A stretch of 64,000 nt of DNA from Succinivibrio dextrinosolvens DSM 3072 (GTDB taxonomy: Bacteria; Pseudomonadota; Gammaproteobacteria; Enterobacterales; Succinivibrionaceae), in assembly GCF_900167015.1 (NCBI RefSeq), contig NZ_FUXX01000002.1, forward strand, positions 62,001-126,000, read 5' to 3'. Positions within the stretch are counted from its first letter, which is position 1, and each line of letters starts with the position of its first letter. Of this stretch, positions 5,851-13,488 are shown in pieces. Below the pieces are notes generated by a model. It was not told the origin of the DNA. It saw nothing but the letters and a program-made list of their open reading frames with translations, and ran no database searches. The translations under genes were made by a program, and so were the position numbers.

Positions 5851-6528
5851 TTAGTGGGTCAGCAGTTTTGCAATTCTGTCACCGGTTAGCTGTGCTAACT
5901 GTACGATAACAACCAGTACCACAATAGTAAAGATCATTACACCGGTTTCATATCGATAGTAACCATACTGGATCGCAAGGTTACCGATACCGCCGCCACC
6001 GACCATACCAGCCATTGCTGAGCAGCCGATAAGATTGATGAAGGTTATGGTGATACCTCTGACAATTGCTGGTGCCGCCTCAACCAGAAGAACATTTCTG
6101 ATAATAAGAGAATGAGAGGCTCCTGTTGCAATTGCAGCTTCAATTACACCTGCATCAACTTCCTTTAAGGCACTCTCAACCAGTCTTGCAAAGAAGACAA
6201 TGGCTGCGATTGATAAAGGTACAGATGCTGCAATCGGACCGATTTTGGTTCCCACCAGGATAAAGGTTAGAGGCAGTGAGAATACCACCAGAATAATAAA
6301 TGGTATGGAGCGGATAATGTTGATAAACGCTGATACTGTTTTATTTAGACTGATGGTCTTTTCAAAAAATGTCTTACCTGAGGTCAGGTATAGAACAAAG
6401 CCAAGTGCAAGACCGAAAATAAGACTTAATGAAAATGATATTCCGATCATCAGAGCGGTTTCATAGATGGACTTTAAAAACTCGTTCTGAAGAATATTTA
6501 TAGTTGATTCCAGTAACTGACTGCTCAT
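5851..6528 (-). CDS. metI: Methionine ABC transporter permease MetI
   Basis: A 225-residue inner-membrane permease of the methionine importer with about five hydrophobic segments. The EAA loop that contacts the ATPase is seen as EAAIATGASHSLIIRNVLL (about residues 129-147). Its start is three bases after the metN stop, so it is translated with metN. MetI works as a dimer with two MetN subunits and receives substrate from MetQ. Length is close to E. coli MetI (217). Confidence 0.93.
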   Translation of the reverse strand: MSSQLLESTINILQNEFLKSIYETALMIGISFSLSLIFGLALGFVLYLTSGKTFFEKTISLNKTVSAFINIIRSIPFIILVVFSLPLTFILVGTKIGPIAASVPLSIAAIVFFARLVESALKEVDAGVIEAAIATGASHSLIIRNVLLVEAAPAIVRGITITFINLIGCSAMAGMVGGGGIGNLAIQYGYYRYETGVMIFTIVVLVVIVQLAQLTGDRIAKLLTH

Positions 6529-6531
6529 TTT

Positions 6532-7542
6532 TTACTCCGCATCCAATCTGCTTATGAAGGTCTTTCTGTGCAGATAGCTGATTACAGACTCTTTTTCTTT
6601 TTCATCTCTGGTACGCAGAGAAATCAGAAGTCTTCCTATAGGTTTATCCTGCACGTACTCAATGTTGCCTTCGATAATTGATAAATCTGTGTTTAAGAAC
6701 TTTCTTGATACATCTGAAATAACAGGATCAAAAGCTCCCTCTTCCTTGTAGGTGATCATGTAAAGATCTTTTTCCTGCTCTAACACCTTCTTAGGTACAG
6801 CCTTTTTGTAATCACTGCTGATAAGAGCCTTGGCTGCCTCTGACTGTGGAGTCGCAAACAGGGTGTAGGAAGGTGCAACCTCAACAAGACGCCCCTTTTC
6901 CATTACTGCTATTCTGTCAAACAGAGATTTTGCAACCTCCATCTGATGTGTGATGAACAGAATGGTGATTGGATAGTGATTCTTAATGTTACGCAGTGTC
7001 TGAATCACTTCCTTGGTGTTGTCAGGGTCGAGTGCAGAGGTTGCCTCATCACATAGAAGGATCTGTGGATTGTTTGCTAGAGCGCGGGCAATAGCCACAC
7101 GCTGCTTCTGACCGCCTGATAATGATGGCGGAAATAATTCCGCCTTATCTGCAAGTCCTACCAGCTCTAAAAGCTCAGGAACTCTTTTCTGGATTTCCTT
7201 AACTGGAGTGCTGGAAGCTTTAAGGGCAAAAGCAATATTGTCATAGACTGTAGCATTAGATATCAGGTTGAAATGCTGAAAGATCATGCCGATGTTTAGT
7301 CGTAGGTTTCTAAGCTTCTGTCCGCTGTAGTTTACGATGTTTTCCCCATTGATATACACATTACCTGAGGTTGGCTTCTGCAGCAGGTTAACTGTACGAA
7401 CCAGTGTTGATTTACCTGCTCCAGATGCTCCTACTATTCCGAAGAACTCGCCTTTGTTAATGGTTAGATTAACGCGGTCAACTGCTGTATATTCAGCGTC
7501 GGTATGCGAGAACTTAACACTTAGATTTTCGAATCTGATCAT
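6532..7542 (-). CDS. metN: Methionine ABC transporter ATPase MetN
   Basis: A 336-residue ATPase with Walker A GASGAGKST (about residues 37-45), signature LSGGQKQRVAIARAL, Walker B ILLCDEATSALD and the switch histidine in LFITHQME. The C-terminal ~90 residues, after about 245, form the NIL/ACT-like domain that in E. coli MetN binds cytoplasmic methionine and inhibits transport (trans-inhibition). The regulatory domain therefore appears retained. It lies between metQ (40-base gap) and metI. Confidence 0.94.
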   Translation of the reverse strand: MIRFENLSVKFSHTDAEYTAVDRVNLTINKGEFFGIVGASGAGKSTLVRTVNLLQKPTSGNVYINGENIVNYSGQKLRNLRLNIGMIFQHFNLISNATVYDNIAFALKASSTPVKEIQKRVPELLELVGLADKAELFPPSLSGGQKQRVAIARALANNPQILLCDEATSALDPDNTKEVIQTLRNIKNHYPITILFITHQMEVAKSLFDRIAVMEKGRLVEVAPSYTLFATPQSEAAKALISSDYKKAVPKKVLEQEKDLYMITYKEEGAFDPVISDVSRKFLNTDLSIIEGNIEYVQDKPIGRLLISLRTRDEKEKESVISYLHRKTFISRLDAE

Positions 7543-7582
7543 TTTTATTTTTTCTTTCCACTAAAGGTTATTATTCTTTTTC

Positions 7583-8434
7583 TTAGTTTGCAGGCCACCA
7601 CTCTGGTTTAGCAAAATCCCTGTAAGTAGGATCTGCATTTACAGATGAGGTAAATTCACGGCTTGCAACTGCATCCTTTAAGAAGGCTCCAACGGTGTTT
7701 ACACGATCACTCTGTACTGTAACCACAAGCTTGATTGGTTCAGATACCTTCTCCTTTGCCAGTGCCTTGTCAAATGGCAGTTTTGCCTCATATGCATAGT
7801 TGCCAGGAACTAAAGCAAGGTCTGTTGAATCAAGTGAACGTGGCAGCTGAGCAGCTTCCATTGGCACGAAGTTTAAGTGCTTAGGGTTCTTGTCGATATC
7901 AGCAATAGATGCCTTGAGATCATCCTTGTCGGCCTTAAGGGTGATAATGCCTGCATCACGGGCGAATCTTAAAGCACGTGACAGGTTTACCGCATCGTTA
8001 GGCAGAGCAACCAAAGCTCCATCTCTAAGCTCATCAAGAGATTTAACCTTCTCTGAGAAAGCAAATAAGCCTAGGGTTGGTACGTTGATAACCTCATCAA
8101 GCTTTAAGCCCTGATTCTCAACAATTGCCTTAAGGTAGATTGAGTGCTGGAACAGATTGGCATCGATTTCACCTGCATCCAGTGCTGAATCAGGCTGTAC
8201 CCAGTCAGAAAACTCAACAAAATCCAGTTTGTGACCGCGGCTTTCAACAACCTTTGTCAGATGGTTTTTCAGCAGATCCTTGTAAGGACCTGGTACTACA
8301 CCGACTTTGATGTGCTCTGGGACAGTATCAGCCTTTGCTGATTTGCTGCCCTCATCATTGCAGGCGGTTACGGTTAAAGCTAAAAATGCTGATAAAACAG
8401 TAAGTAGGATATTTTTCTTTGATAATTTTGACAT
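7583..8434 (-). CDS. metQ: Methionine-binding lipoprotein MetQ
   Basis: A 283-residue substrate-binding lipoprotein of the NlpA family. The N-terminus has lysines, a hydrophobic stretch and a lipobox-like TVTAC with the acylated cysteine at about residue 25. IKVGVVPGPY and the LDAGEIDANLFQH segment are typical of MetQ. It binds methionine outside the inner membrane and delivers it to MetI. Its Shine-Dalgarno sequence, CCGGAG (8447-8442), 7 bases from the ATG, is almost fully complementary to a segment of the upstream leader ORF, so its translation is probably regulated (see the regulatory entry). Confidence 0.94.
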   Translation of the reverse strand: MSKLSKKNILLTVLSAFLALTVTACNDEGSKSAKADTVPEHIKVGVVPGPYKDLLKNHLTKVVESRGHKLDFVEFSDWVQPDSALDAGEIDANLFQHSIYLKAIVENQGLKLDEVINVPTLGLFAFSEKVKSLDELRDGALVALPNDAVNLSRALRFARDAGIITLKADKDDLKASIADIDKNPKHLNFVPMEAAQLPRSLDSTDLALVPGNYAYEAKLPFDKALAKEKVSEPIKLVVTVQSDRVNTVGAFLKDAVASREFTSSVNADPTYRDFAKPEWWPAN

Positions 8435-8909: not shown

Positions 8910-10346
8910 TTATTTCAGATTCAGTTCCTTAATCTTTCTGGTCAGAGTATTTCTTCCCCAGCCCAGAAGCTTTGCTGATTCCTGCTTGTGATTACCCGTA
9001 AAGGTAAGGGTAGCTTCAAGCATAACCTTCTCAAACTCAGGAACAGCCTCATTAAGAATATCTCTTTCTCCTGCCTTGAGCTTTGCATCCACCCAGCTTC
9101 TCAGCATATCCTGCCATGACTGATTTTCCTTAGCCACAGCACCGCTTGTGTTGCTCTTGTTCTGAGTGTTGTTAGCATGCAGGAATTCAGATGGAAGATC
9201 CACAAGCTGAATATCACGTCCTGTTACCATAATGGTTAGGTACTTACACAGATTCTTCAGCTGGCGTACATTGCCAGGCCATGGAAGACGGCATAGGAAT
9301 ACCAGAACCTCTGAAGTTAGCTTCTTAGGCTCGGTGTGTCCTTCCTGAGCTGCCTGTGCAAGGAAATGCTTTGTCAGCAGAGGAATATCATTATTTCTGT
9401 CTCTTAGAGGAGGAATATTGATGTTGATGATATTCAGTCTGTAGAAAAGATCAGAGTTAAAGGTACCCTTTGCGATCTTTGCCTCTAAATCCTGAGATGT
9501 TGAGGCGATTACTCTTACGTTTGCTTTGATTGCTGTTGTGCTGTCGATATTGGTGTATTCACCAGTCTGAAGAAGCTTTAACAGTCTTGACTGACAGTCC
9601 ATTGGAAGATCATTGATTTCACTGATGAACAGGGTACCGCCTTCTGCCTTTGCTATTGCGCAGGTTGAAGGATCTTTGGTAATGTCACCGAACAGCTCAT
9701 ACTTAACCATTTCCTGTGGAATAGAAGAGATGTTGATTGAAACAAAGCTCTTTCCTGTTCTCTCTCCGTGATTGTGCAGGGCTTTTGCAACCTGGCCACG
9801 ACCGGTACCGATTTCACCGTGGATAAGTACTGGTAAATCAGTCTTGGAAACACGGCCGATAAACTTGAATACATCCTGCATTGCAGGTGACTTGCCGATA
9901 ATCTCAGTCTCTTCCTTCTGCTCAACAGGAGAAGCCATAAGAGTATTACGGTTTCTCTGGCTTACAAGCTGAAGCATATTCACTCTGTGAACTGCTGCTC
10001 TTCTGATAACTGCAACTGCCTGATCAATGTCGAAAGGCTTTGGCAGGTATTCAAATGAGCCCTCATTGAAGGCATCAATAGCTGCTGACAGGTCTGAGTG
10101 AGCTGTCATGATAATGAAAGGAATGTTCTCATCGACCTCGTGAACTGCTTTGATTAGCTCAAGACCATCAATGCCAGGCATTTTGATATCTGAAACGATA
10201 ACATCAGGTGTCTCTTTCTTTATTGCTTCAAGTGCAGCTTCAGCGTTTTCAAAAAGACGATGATTAATGCTGTTTACATCCAAAGCCTTATCGAAAACAA
10301 AGCGAATGCTTGCATCATCGTCTATTACCCAAATCATTGGATTCAT
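8910..10346 (-). CDS. glnG: NtrC-family response regulator with degenerate AAA+ domain
   Basis: A 478-residue nitrogen-regulator NtrC. The receiver domain is intact: acidic D9-D11, phospho-acceptor D53 in VSDIKMPG, and K103. The Fis-type C-terminus (about 440-478) carries HKQESAKLLGWGRNTLTRK, nearly identical to enteric NtrC. The central sigma-54 ATPase domain is altered. Walker A reads GEIGTGRG (177-184) instead of GESGTGKE, Walker B reads GGTLFISE (236-243) with Ser at the Asp position, and the segment between ELFG (220) and GGTLF (236) is about six residues short with no GAFTGA. The sensor/arginine region (SDLFYRLN) and PGNVRQL remain. It probably binds DNA and receives phosphate but is unlikely to drive sigma-54 open-complex formation. 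It overlaps the ntrB stop by one base. Confidence 0.9.
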   Translation of the reverse strand: MNPMIWVIDDDASIRFVFDKALDVNSINHRLFENAEAALEAIKKETPDVIVSDIKMPGIDGLELIKAVHEVDENIPFIIMTAHSDLSAAIDAFNEGSFEYLPKPFDIDQAVAVIRRAAVHRVNMLQLVSQRNRNTLMASPVEQKEETEIIGKSPAMQDVFKFIGRVSKTDLPVLIHGEIGTGRGQVAKALHNHGERTGKSFVSINISSIPQEMVKYELFGDITKDPSTCAIAKAEGGTLFISEINDLPMDCQSRLLKLLQTGEYTNIDSTTAIKANVRVIASTSQDLEAKIAKGTFNSDLFYRLNIININIPPLRDRNNDIPLLTKHFLAQAAQEGHTEPKKLTSEVLVFLCRLPWPGNVRQLKNLCKYLTIMVTGRDIQLVDLPSEFLHANNTQNKSNTSGAVAKENQSWQDMLRSWVDAKLKAGERDILNEAVPEFEKVMLEATLTFTGNHKQESAKLLGWGRNTLTRKIKELNLK

Positions 10347-11446
10347 TATCGGTATTCTCCGTGATTTTCTGTTTTGACTGGTAAAATTATTCTAAATTCA
10401 GTTTCGTGAGCATCGGACAGACACTCAATGGTTCCATTATGACGTTCGATTATGTTCAGAGCCAGTGATAAGCCAAGACCGTTACCGTTAGGCTTGGTGG
10501 TTACCATTGGATAAAACAGTGTCTTTTTTAATTGTTCGGAAATCTGTGGTCCGTTGTTGATGATTGAAATAACCATGCACAGCGGATACTTGGTTTCTCT
10601 TATGATTGTTCTGAAACTTGCTCTGGTTTTAATCTTGATTACAGGATCGGTAAATACTTCGTTATCAAGTGCGTCAATTGCGTTGTTGACGATGTTTAGA
10701 ATAACCTGTTCGATTGAATCTGAATCTAAAGGCAGTTCAGGCAGAGATGGATCGTAATCCTTCTTAATCGTTATTCTCTTGCAGTTATCCTGAAGCTGAA
10801 CAAGCTTTAACACCTTTTCAATCAGATAGTGAATGTTAACCTGGGTCAAAGGATTTGGACGCTGAGGTCCTAAAAGGTTATTAACCAGAATCTTCAGTCT
10901 GTCGGTCTGTTCGATAATAACCTTGGTGTAATCCTTTAGATTCTCAACTTTGTCAGCATAGGTCATCTCAATAAGCTGAGCTGCGCCTCTGATGCCGCCA
11001 AGAGGATTCTTAATCTCATGAGCGAGGTTTCGGATAAGGTCTCTTGCTGCAGTGAACTGGAAATTCTGCTGAGCCTGATTGATAAGTTTTTCCTGATGAG
11101 CGATAGGGTGGATTTCAACAAGGAATCCGTCAAATTTATTTTCTGTATACTGGAAGATAGTGAGGTCGGCTTTTGATGTTTTGCCTGGATAAGGAGTGAA
11201 ACGCACGTCTGCGGCAGAGAAACCTTGGAAATTGACGTTGAAGTCTGGATTATTCAACGTATCTATCAGAGTAATTTCCTCTCTGTCTACAAGATCCTGA
11301 AGCTTCTGTGACTTAAGACGAGTTCGTGAAATTCCACACAACTGTTCTGCAGCGGTATTTGCATACAGGATACTCATCTTATTATCCGTAATCATTACCG
11401 CCGTTGTCAGGTTTTCTAATATATTTTCCTTATCTATTTCGGACAT
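10346..11446 (-). CDS. glnL: Nitrogen-regulation sensor kinase NtrB
   Basis: A 366-residue cytoplasmic histidine kinase with an N-terminal PAS-like domain, no membrane segments, H-box NLAHEIKNPLGGIRGA with H143, N-box SIEQVILNIVNNAIDAL (about 244-260), and a GNGLGLSLAL G2 box. The LFYPMVTTKPN stretch is specific to NtrB. The G1 box reads INNGPQI (296-302), where enteric NtrB has EDNGPGI; the adenine-contacting Asp is Asn297 and the second Gly is Gln301. Autokinase activity may be reduced, though the phosphatase role (with PII) could remain. It is co-transcribed with ntrC. glnA is not adjacent; typA lies upstream. Confidence 0.9.
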   Translation of the reverse strand: MSEIDKENILENLTTAVMITDNKMSILYANTAAEQLCGISRTRLKSQKLQDLVDREEITLIDTLNNPDFNVNFQGFSAADVRFTPYPGKTSKADLTIFQYTENKFDGFLVEIHPIAHQEKLINQAQQNFQFTAARDLIRNLAHEIKNPLGGIRGAAQLIEMTYADKVENLKDYTKVIIEQTDRLKILVNNLLGPQRPNPLTQVNIHYLIEKVLKLVQLQDNCKRITIKKDYDPSLPELPLDSDSIEQVILNIVNNAIDALDNEVFTDPVIKIKTRASFRTIIRETKYPLCMVISIINNGPQISEQLKKTLFYPMVTTKPNGNGLGLSLALNIIERHNGTIECLSDAHETEFRIILPVKTENHGEYR

Positions 11447-11460
11447 CAGATTGCCTATAA

Positions 11461-11477
11461 CGTTCTATAATAGTGCA
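11461..11477. promoter_or_regulatory. Half-conserved NtrC-type site near ntrB start
   Basis: On the plus strand GTTC-N7-GTGC (11462-11476) keeps the GCAC-N7-GTGC spacing of NtrC sites with one arm intact. It lies about 15-30 bases upstream of the ntrB start codon, 56 bases centre-to-centre from the better site at 11517-11533. It is weak evidence alone. Confidence 0.3.
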
Positions 11478-11516
11478 TGTGATATTTTCTTACACTTTAT
11501 CACAGAATTTGAAAAA

Positions 11517-11533
11517 GGCACAAAAATAGTGCA
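11517..11533. promoter_or_regulatory. Candidate NtrC operator upstream of ntrBC
   Basis: GGCAC-AAAAATA-GTGCA contains GCAC-N7-GTGC, the symmetric core of enteric NtrC sites (TGCACC-N5-GGTGCA). The DNA-reading helix of the NtrC encoded here matches the enteric one almost residue for residue, so the same target is expected. Its position, about 70-90 bases before ntrB, fits autoregulation. Confidence 0.55.
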
Positions 11534-11593: not shown

Positions 11594-11628
11594 AAATAAA
11601 AAAGCCTGCACCAAAATGGTACAGGCTT
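11594..11628 (-). terminator. typA terminator containing an NtrC-like palindrome
   Basis: Arms AAGCCTGCACC (11602-11612) and GGTACAGGCTT (11618-11628) with loop AAAAT, followed on the minus strand by a T-rich run, make a strong terminator just after typA. The inner part, TGCACCAAAATGGTACA (11608-11624), differs from an ideal NtrC site (TGCACCAAAATGGTGCA) by one base. It may serve both as terminator and as an upstream NtrC site for ntrB, or the match may be chance. Confidence 0.8.
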
Positions 11629-11649
11629 TCTGAACTCTAAACTTGAGTA

Positions 11650-13488
11650 TTATTCGTCAGCTTTCTTACCGCCAGCGGCTCTGAATGCACGAACACGATC
11701 AAGCTCAGACAGATTCTTCTTACGGATTCTGATGCTCTGAGGGGTAACCTCAACCAGCTCGTCCTCATTGATGAACTCCAGAGCCTGCTCCAGGGTCATC
11801 TTAACTGCTGGGGTCAGGATAATGTTATCGTCTGAACCTGCAGCACGAACGTTGGTTAGTTTCTTGGTCTTTAATGGGTTAACAGTCAGATCGTTTGAAC
11901 GAACGTGTAAACCGATAACCTCACCCTCGTAGATCTCTTCACCTGGAGATACGAACAGTCTGCCACGCTCCTGTAGGAACCATAGAGCATATGGAACAGC
12001 CTTACCGGTATCGTTAGATATTAGAACACCGTTCTGTCTCTCACCGATGCTGCCGCCTGCATACTCATCGTAGCTGTCGAAGGTATGGAACATTAAACCG
12101 GTACCTGAGGTTAGAGTCATGTATAGTGACTGGTAGCCGATAAGTCCACGTGCAGGGATACGGTAATCTAAACGAACACGACCCTTTCCATCTGGAACCA
12201 TGTTCTTTAACTCACCCTTACGAAGACCTAACTCTTCCATAACAGGACCCTGATGCTCTTCCTGAAGATCTAATGTAAGGATCTCATATGGCTCAAGAGT
12301 TCTGCCGCCTTCCTTGTGAAGAATAACCTCTGGACGTGAAACAGCCAGCTCGTAGCCTTCACGACGCATCTCTTCAATCAGAACTGACAGGTGTAATTCA
12401 CCACGGCCTGATACCTTGAATCTGTCAGTATCTTCAGTTGTTTCAACGCGTAGAGCAACGTTGTGAACAAGCTCCTCGCGAAGTCTCTCTTCAATGTTTC
12501 TGGATGTAATGAACTTTCCTTCACGACCAGCAAAAGGAGAGGTGTTAACACAGAAGTTCATAGAAACTGTTGGCTCATCAACTGATAGAGCAGGCAGAGC
12601 CTCAACAGCTGAGCTATCACAGATGGTGTCTGAAATCTTCAGCTCACCTAAACCGGTAACAGCAATAATGTCACCAGCCTCTGCGCTTTCAACCTGAGTT
12701 CTGTGAAGGCCTAGATAACCTAGAACCTGACCAATCTTACCGGTACGGGTATTGCCGTCACGGTCAATGATGGTTACAGGCTGATTTGCCTTAGCTACAC
12801 CGCGCTTTACACGGCCAACACCGATAACACCAACGTATGAGGTGAAATCAAGTGATGAAATCTGCATCTGGAAAGGACCTTCAAGATCTGCGTCTGGAGG
12901 GCTTACCTTATCAACGATAGCCTGGAATAATGGCTCCATGTTGTCGCCGTGATTCTCAAGATCTAATGATGCCCAGCCCTGGAAAGCTGATGCATAAACA
13001 ACAGGGAAATCCAGCTGTTCATCTGTTGCGCCAAGATTGTCGAACAGATCGAAAATCTGATCAATAACCCAGTCTGGTCTTGCGCCTTCACGATCGCATT
13101 TATTAATAACAACGATTGGTTTTAAACCTGCAGCGAAAGCCTTCTGAGTTACGAAACGTGTCTGAGGCATTGGGCCGTCTACAGCGTCAACCAGCAGTAG
13201 TACTGAGTCAACCATAGACATAACACGTTCTACTTCACCACCGAAATCAGCGTGGCCTGGGGTATCAACGATATTAATGCGGTAATCTTTCCAGTTGATA
13301 GCGGTATTTTTTGAAAGAATAGTAATACCACGCTCTTTTTCGATATCATTTGAGTCCATGATACGTTCCTGACCGATTTCATTGCGGTCAAGAGTTCCAG
13401 ACTGGCGTAGTAATTTATCAACTAATGTTGTTTTTCCGTGGTCAACATGAGCAATAATAGCAATGTTACGGATCTTCTGAACATCCAT
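11650..13488 (-). CDS. typA: Ribosome-associated GTPase TypA/BipA
   Basis: A 612-residue translational GTPase of the EF-G superfamily. G1 is [11 protein letters not shown] (about residues 14-24), G3 is [11 protein letters not shown], and G4 is NKCD. Domain II, two EF-G-like domains and the BipA-specific C-terminal domain account for the full length (E. coli 607). It binds 70S ribosomes and aids 50S assembly and stress or low-temperature growth. The gene stands alone between its own promoter region and terminator. Confidence 0.96.

Follow-up and report, generated by a model that had tools for sequence, protein, structure and literature searches.

We found that the NtrC protein of Succinivibrio dextrinosolvens DSM 3072, encoded in the 64,000-nucleotide stretch of contig NZ_FUXX01000002.1 analysed here (the window), has lost the motor motifs of a sigma-54 activator, and that one clade of eight Succinivibrionaceae genera shares this loss. 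NtrC is the textbook ATPase activator of sigma-54. Because the motor motifs are gone, it is close to certain, as far as sequence can tell, that the protein no longer activates sigma-54 promoters, and the missing sigma-54 promoter at glnA agrees with this. We think it probable that NtrC of this clade, no longer a sigma-54 activator, now binds DNA under the control of phosphorylation, regulates sigma-70 promoters and represses its own operon, ntrBC.

By Pfam, the protein consists of a receiver, an AAA domain of the sigma-54-activator type with its lid, and a Fis-type helix-turn-helix (HTH). The losses named in the original prediction (Walker A, Walker B, GAFTGA and a shortening of about six residues) were all present as described, on the minus strand; in the alignment, the segment from ELFG to GGTLF is 6 residues shorter than in intact NtrC and lacks GAFTGA. 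Alignment also bore out that D53 and the recognition helix LLGWGRNTLTRK are kept. The best NCBIfam match was ntrC (TIGR01818) at 536 bits, which misses the curated cut-off of 558.6 bits. Nevertheless, by descent the protein is the NtrC of eight Succinivibrionaceae genera, Succinivibrio and seven of its allies: its partner ntrB is adjacent, and the tree places it with the NtrC of the order. The E. coli NtrC row in our alignment served only as a ruler, and the conclusions rest on retrieved intact relatives. An AlphaFold model, built from a 13-sequence alignment and poor past residue 318 (mean pLDDT 63.7), confirmed the AAA core fold only.

Table 1. Features of the ntrBC region, in positions of the window
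Feature	Position	Strand	Remarks
ntrC (478 aa)	8910..10346	minus	receiver, AAA core, lid, Fis-type HTH; sigma-54 and ATPase motifs lost
HTH recognition stretch LLGWGRNTLTRK	8934..8969	minus	in ntrC
RNND (residues 317-320), start of lid	9387..9398	minus	fixed or nearly so in the degenerate clade
Walker B GTLFISEI	9615..9638	minus	in ntrC; D replaced by S242, E243 kept
Shortened L1 loop DITKDPSTC	9660..9686	minus	at the place of GAFTGA; sequence and length vary in the clade
Walker A GEIGTGRG (G177 to G184)	9795..9818	minus	in ntrC; K replaced by R183
Phospho-acceptor D53	10188..10190	minus	in ntrC; kept
ntrB, sensor kinase	10346..11446	minus	H-box intact; NCBIfam NR(II) cut-off passed
Second box TGCACTATTATAGAACG, putative	11461..11477	minus	weak; just past the predicted start site
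Extended -10 TGATAAAGT of the predicted sigma-70 ntrB promoter	11494..11502	minus	conserved in the genus
Predicted NtrC box TGCACTATTTTTGTGCC 5' of ntrB	11517..11533	minus	right half over the -35 region
typA	11650-13488		upstream neighbour of ntrB

To follow the losses across the family, we surveyed 57 Succinivibrionaceae genomes, 51 of which had an NtrC match, and aligned 50 orthologs. Degenerate NtrC occurred in 39 species-level genomes of eight genera. The Walker A lysine is replaced by arginine and the GAFTGA loop is missing in every one (39/39), and the Walker B aspartate is lost in 38/39 (N in 29, S in 9, D in 1), while E243 is retained in 38/39 and the recognition stretch LLGWGRNTLTR in 39/39. 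Intact motifs were found in the NtrC of 11 family genomes from five other genera, and in 27 NtrC sequences sampled from other families in the order. The 39 degenerate proteins form one monophyletic group (support 100) whose stem branch measures 1.0 substitutions per site, whereas depth inside the clade averages 0.52. Apart from the single D at the Walker B position, no aligned genome had an intermediate set of losses. Thus the family-wide alignment suggested in the original prediction assigned all three losses to one clade, with intact motifs elsewhere. A sequencing error, which that prediction had considered as an artefactual source, is ruled out, since 38 other orthologs carry the same loss, the group is monophyletic with support 100, and dN/dS is low (0.01-0.07). 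Two further genomic observations were made in this survey. Genus g12 (G049-G053) has rpoN and no clear NtrC ortholog at 1e-60, with a 30% match in one genome only, and may have lost NtrC outright. Elsewhere in the order, a 1.1-Mb, 100%-complete genome (L241, G096) still encodes an NtrC in which the Walker motifs and GAFTGA are intact, although the genome is strongly reduced.

We next considered whether the gene is decaying. Whole-gene dN/dS was 0.01-0.07 between the degenerate ntrC pairs tested, with dS saturated in several of them, and no stop codon was found in any ntrC ortholog, so ntrC is under strong purifying selection. The domains differ in their conservation: invariant sites make up 20% of the AAA core in the degenerate clade versus 61% in intact relatives, indicating relaxation, compared with 51% versus 32% in the lid and 58% versus 42% in the HTH. 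The two sets are unlike in size and depth (39 vs 11), and we therefore place weight on the contrast in direction between domains. R183, R317, N319, C352 and R353 are present in 100% of the degenerate clade, R303 and R361 are retained in 38/39 and 36/39, and the arginine-finger region is retained, whereas N318 and N319 of the RNND motif vary in intact relatives. A vestigial NtrC, kept for its receiver or HTH alone and with little regulation left, would account for the relaxed core, for a loop that varies in length and sequence, and for the modest genome-wide excess of NtrC boxes described below. The low whole-gene dN/dS, the hyperconserved lid and HTH, the lack of stop codons and the conserved boxes at ntrB (22/29 genomes) make this explanation very unlikely. 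The pattern of conservation is that of a changed function rather than of decay.

The original prediction had also suggested that the lineage may have lost RpoN. This proved incorrect: a full-length rpoN is present in the genome (532 aa, adjoining hpf- and ptsN-like genes) and in 54/57 family genomes, including all 41 of high quality. Five other activators of the genome, about 30% identical to NtrC, have both Walker motifs and GAFTGA intact; none scored above the cut-off of any NCBIfam model, and by our own reading of their sequences two resemble FleQ/FlrC-type (flagellar) and three PrpR-type proteins. Because rpoN and these activators are kept, the change is specific to NtrC, and the loss is confined to it. 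As a separate observation, the RpoN of genus g10 (G027:C51:30217-30699) has the lowest DNA-binding-domain score in the family, 182.7 bits compared with about 200-234 elsewhere. The coexistence of RpoN with five intact activators, together with the retained arginine-finger region, could also fit an NtrC that mixes as an inactive partner into the rings of an intact activator and so modulates sigma-54 activation. We regard this as extremely unlikely, as the other activators are so distant in sequence, and as the clade lacks a sigma-54 promoter at glnA and an exact match upstream of ntrB.

The promoters of glnA separate the two groups. In intact relatives, 8/9 glnA regions have a sigma-54 promoter that matches TGGCAY-N7-GCW exactly, 70-84 bases before the gene, and in the intact genera g7, g9 and g14 an NtrC box with one or two mismatches lies at about -160 to -177. 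In the degenerate clade, no sigma-54 promoter was found in 27 glnA regions from 25 genomes, even with one mismatch allowed, and no exact match was found 5' of ntrB. Thus the -24/-12 promoters that the original prediction had proposed to look for exist at glnA of intact genera and are missing there in the degenerate clade. A sigma-54-like match about 150-176 bases before ntrB in intact genera was rejected, as by our own reading it is part of the 3' coding end of the upstream gene (a DGKIIAS-type peptide). The second glnA of Succinivibrio has, by eye, a conserved TTGACA-17-GAAAAT-like element. The locus itself also differs. In intact g7, g9 and g14, the order is glnA-ntrB-ntrC, all on one strand, whereas the degenerate genera have typA-ntrB-ntrC with glnA divergent, and the ntrBC locus in the Succinivibrio window no longer includes glnA. 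ntrBC has therefore moved out of the glnA operon to behind typA. On the other side, directly 3' of ntrC and on its strand, comes a methionine-type cluster of ABC transporter genes (permease, ATPase and lipoprotein; 5851-8434), and after that an aminotransferase gene.

We then searched for predicted binding sites, scoring the enteric consensus box TGCAC-N7-GTGCA with at most one mismatch in the 200 bases upstream of genes. A box precedes ntrB in 22/29 degenerate genomes, whereas among 319 control palindromes of matched GC content the best reached 9; the remaining 7/29 had no box within these limits. At asnB it was found in 12/34 regions of the degenerate clade (best control, 4) and in none of five from intact relatives. 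In 10 of the 16 regions inspected, the box at ntrB is centred 26-27 bases ahead of an extended -10 (TGNTAAAGT or TGCTAAAAT), and therefore near -38, over the -35; the overlap with the -35 is seen in most Succinivibrio. In several species a weaker, half-conserved copy follows about 56-61 bases downstream. The asnB boxes lie at variable distances from candidate -10 elements, often further upstream than at ntrB. A second candidate before ntrB, at 11607-11623, was rejected as an NtrC site because it is part of the hairpin of the typA terminator (GCCTGTACCATTTTGGTGCAGGC, then a run of T's); this hairpin (11594-11630) looks like an NtrC box with a single mismatch and is a trap for motif scans here. 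Elsewhere in the S. dextrinosolvens genome, one box each was found before asnA, before the second glnA and before an ornithine-carbamoyltransferase-like gene. We treat these as leads only, because the genome-wide excess is modest (36 boxes vs 19 for a reversed control pattern). At G000:C100:29668-29702 (L169), a pair of NtrC-like boxes stands in tandem, spaced by 18 bases, about 280-300 bases before a DAHP-synthase-like gene; it could be a site of NtrC or of another regulator.

The position of the boxes strongly suggests that degenerate NtrC acts at sigma-70 promoters. NtrB would phosphorylate NtrC on D53, and NtrC dimers would then bind the boxes cooperatively; the genome encodes the genes for signal input, namely NtrB, two PII-type, GlnD-like and GlnE-like proteins. 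At ntrBC, bound NtrC would mask the -35, resembling enteric NtrC, which autorepresses at glnLp. Autorepression is the likeliest sign of regulation at this promoter, since the predicted box lies over the -35, the -10 is of the extended type and a weak second box lies near the start; at asnB NtrC may activate or repress. Of the proposed switch from sigma-54 activator to sigma-70 regulator or repressor, the lost motor, the absent glnA sigma-54 promoter and the predicted box over the ntrB -35 all stood, and the supposed loss of RpoN did not.

A class II activator, too, could work from a box with its centre near -38. Phosphorylated NtrC, perhaps ATP-bound, might thus recruit sigma-70 polymerase directly from the boxes at ntrBC and asnB, as in Rhodobacter capsulatus. 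The asnB boxes further upstream of candidate -10s would fit such activation, the polymerase might be contacted through the newly fixed residues of the lid, and the P-loop is otherwise invariant. However, the arrangement at ntrB described above suits repression better, and ATP binding is usually impaired when the Walker A lysine becomes arginine, in contrast to R. capsulatus NtrC. We therefore consider direct activation rather unlikely and favour the autorepressing regulator. ATP hydrolysis by degenerate NtrC has very probably gone, judging from the replaced Walker residues, and the invariant GxxG(T/S)GR pocket and the kept arginines give a hint of nucleotide binding without hydrolysis. It is possible, and we put it forward tentatively, that this pocket and the hyperconserved lid (RNND, CR) represent an AAA+ domain repurposed as a non-hydrolysing nucleotide-sensing or sigma-70-contact module, and that the ntr system of the clade was rewired from sigma-54 to sigma-70 with sigma-54 staying in the cell.

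Several known regulators resemble the protein in part. R. capsulatus NtrC, in which GAFTGA is deleted, is reported to activate sigma-70 promoters and to require ATP binding and not hydrolysis (PMC10274813). It is likewise an NtrC-type regulator paired with NtrB, so the comparison drawn in the original prediction was apt. However, its Walker A works, whereas the Succinivibrio clade has both the Walker K and D replaced and goes further; R. capsulatus belongs to another bacterial class, so the two losses are independent events. Caulobacter NtrC also lacks GAFTGA (an eight-residue deletion) and acts at sigma-70 promoters, with both activation and repression reported, and it needs Walker A K178 and Walker B D235 to grow on ammonium (PMC10274813); the equivalents of these two residues are replaced in the Succinivibrio clade. 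Vibrio cholerae VpsR, a bEBP-type protein without GAFTGA that works with sigma-70, reportedly does not need ATP (PMC10274813). It was among the structural matches of our model (Z about 21.7, 23% identity in the structural alignment), although it is no NtrC ortholog and responds to c-di-GMP. Brucella NtrX, which ranked high among both the sequence and the structure matches, has a shortened L1 without GAFTGA, but it keeps the Walker A GK and Walker B D and is a different paralog. TyrR, DhaR and HupR are sigma-54-activator relatives with defective GAFTGA that act with sigma-70 (PMC3162934); they belong to different families with different signals, and the likeness concerns GAFTGA and sigma-70.

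Set against these cases, the Succinivibrio protein lacks every sequence feature of a sigma-54 activator that we tested (GAFTGA, Walker A K, Walker B D and the glnA promoter). Like the sigma-70-acting bEBP relatives of the R. capsulatus NtrC and VpsR type, it is missing GAFTGA and keeps its DNA-binding domain, and at ntrB the sequence predicts a site at a sigma-70 promoter. Among the papers available to our search, we found none uniting all three losses in an NtrC and none naming Succinivibrionaceae together with NtrC; the nitrogen transcriptome paper on S. dextrinosolvens Z6 leaves ntrC unmentioned in its main text (PMC7507024). An enteric-type NtrC that has lost both of its Walker residues is new relative to these precedents.

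Family-based annotation tends to label these NtrCs as sigma-54 activators, which is misleading. In one enteric-type clade the motor has been lost and the target promoter and operon have changed too, with intact sister genera at hand for comparison, and the role of the NtrC AAA+ domain outside sigma-54 becomes directly testable. The clade consists of rumen and gut bacteria, and these findings are relevant to ammonia assimilation in abundant rumen bacteria.
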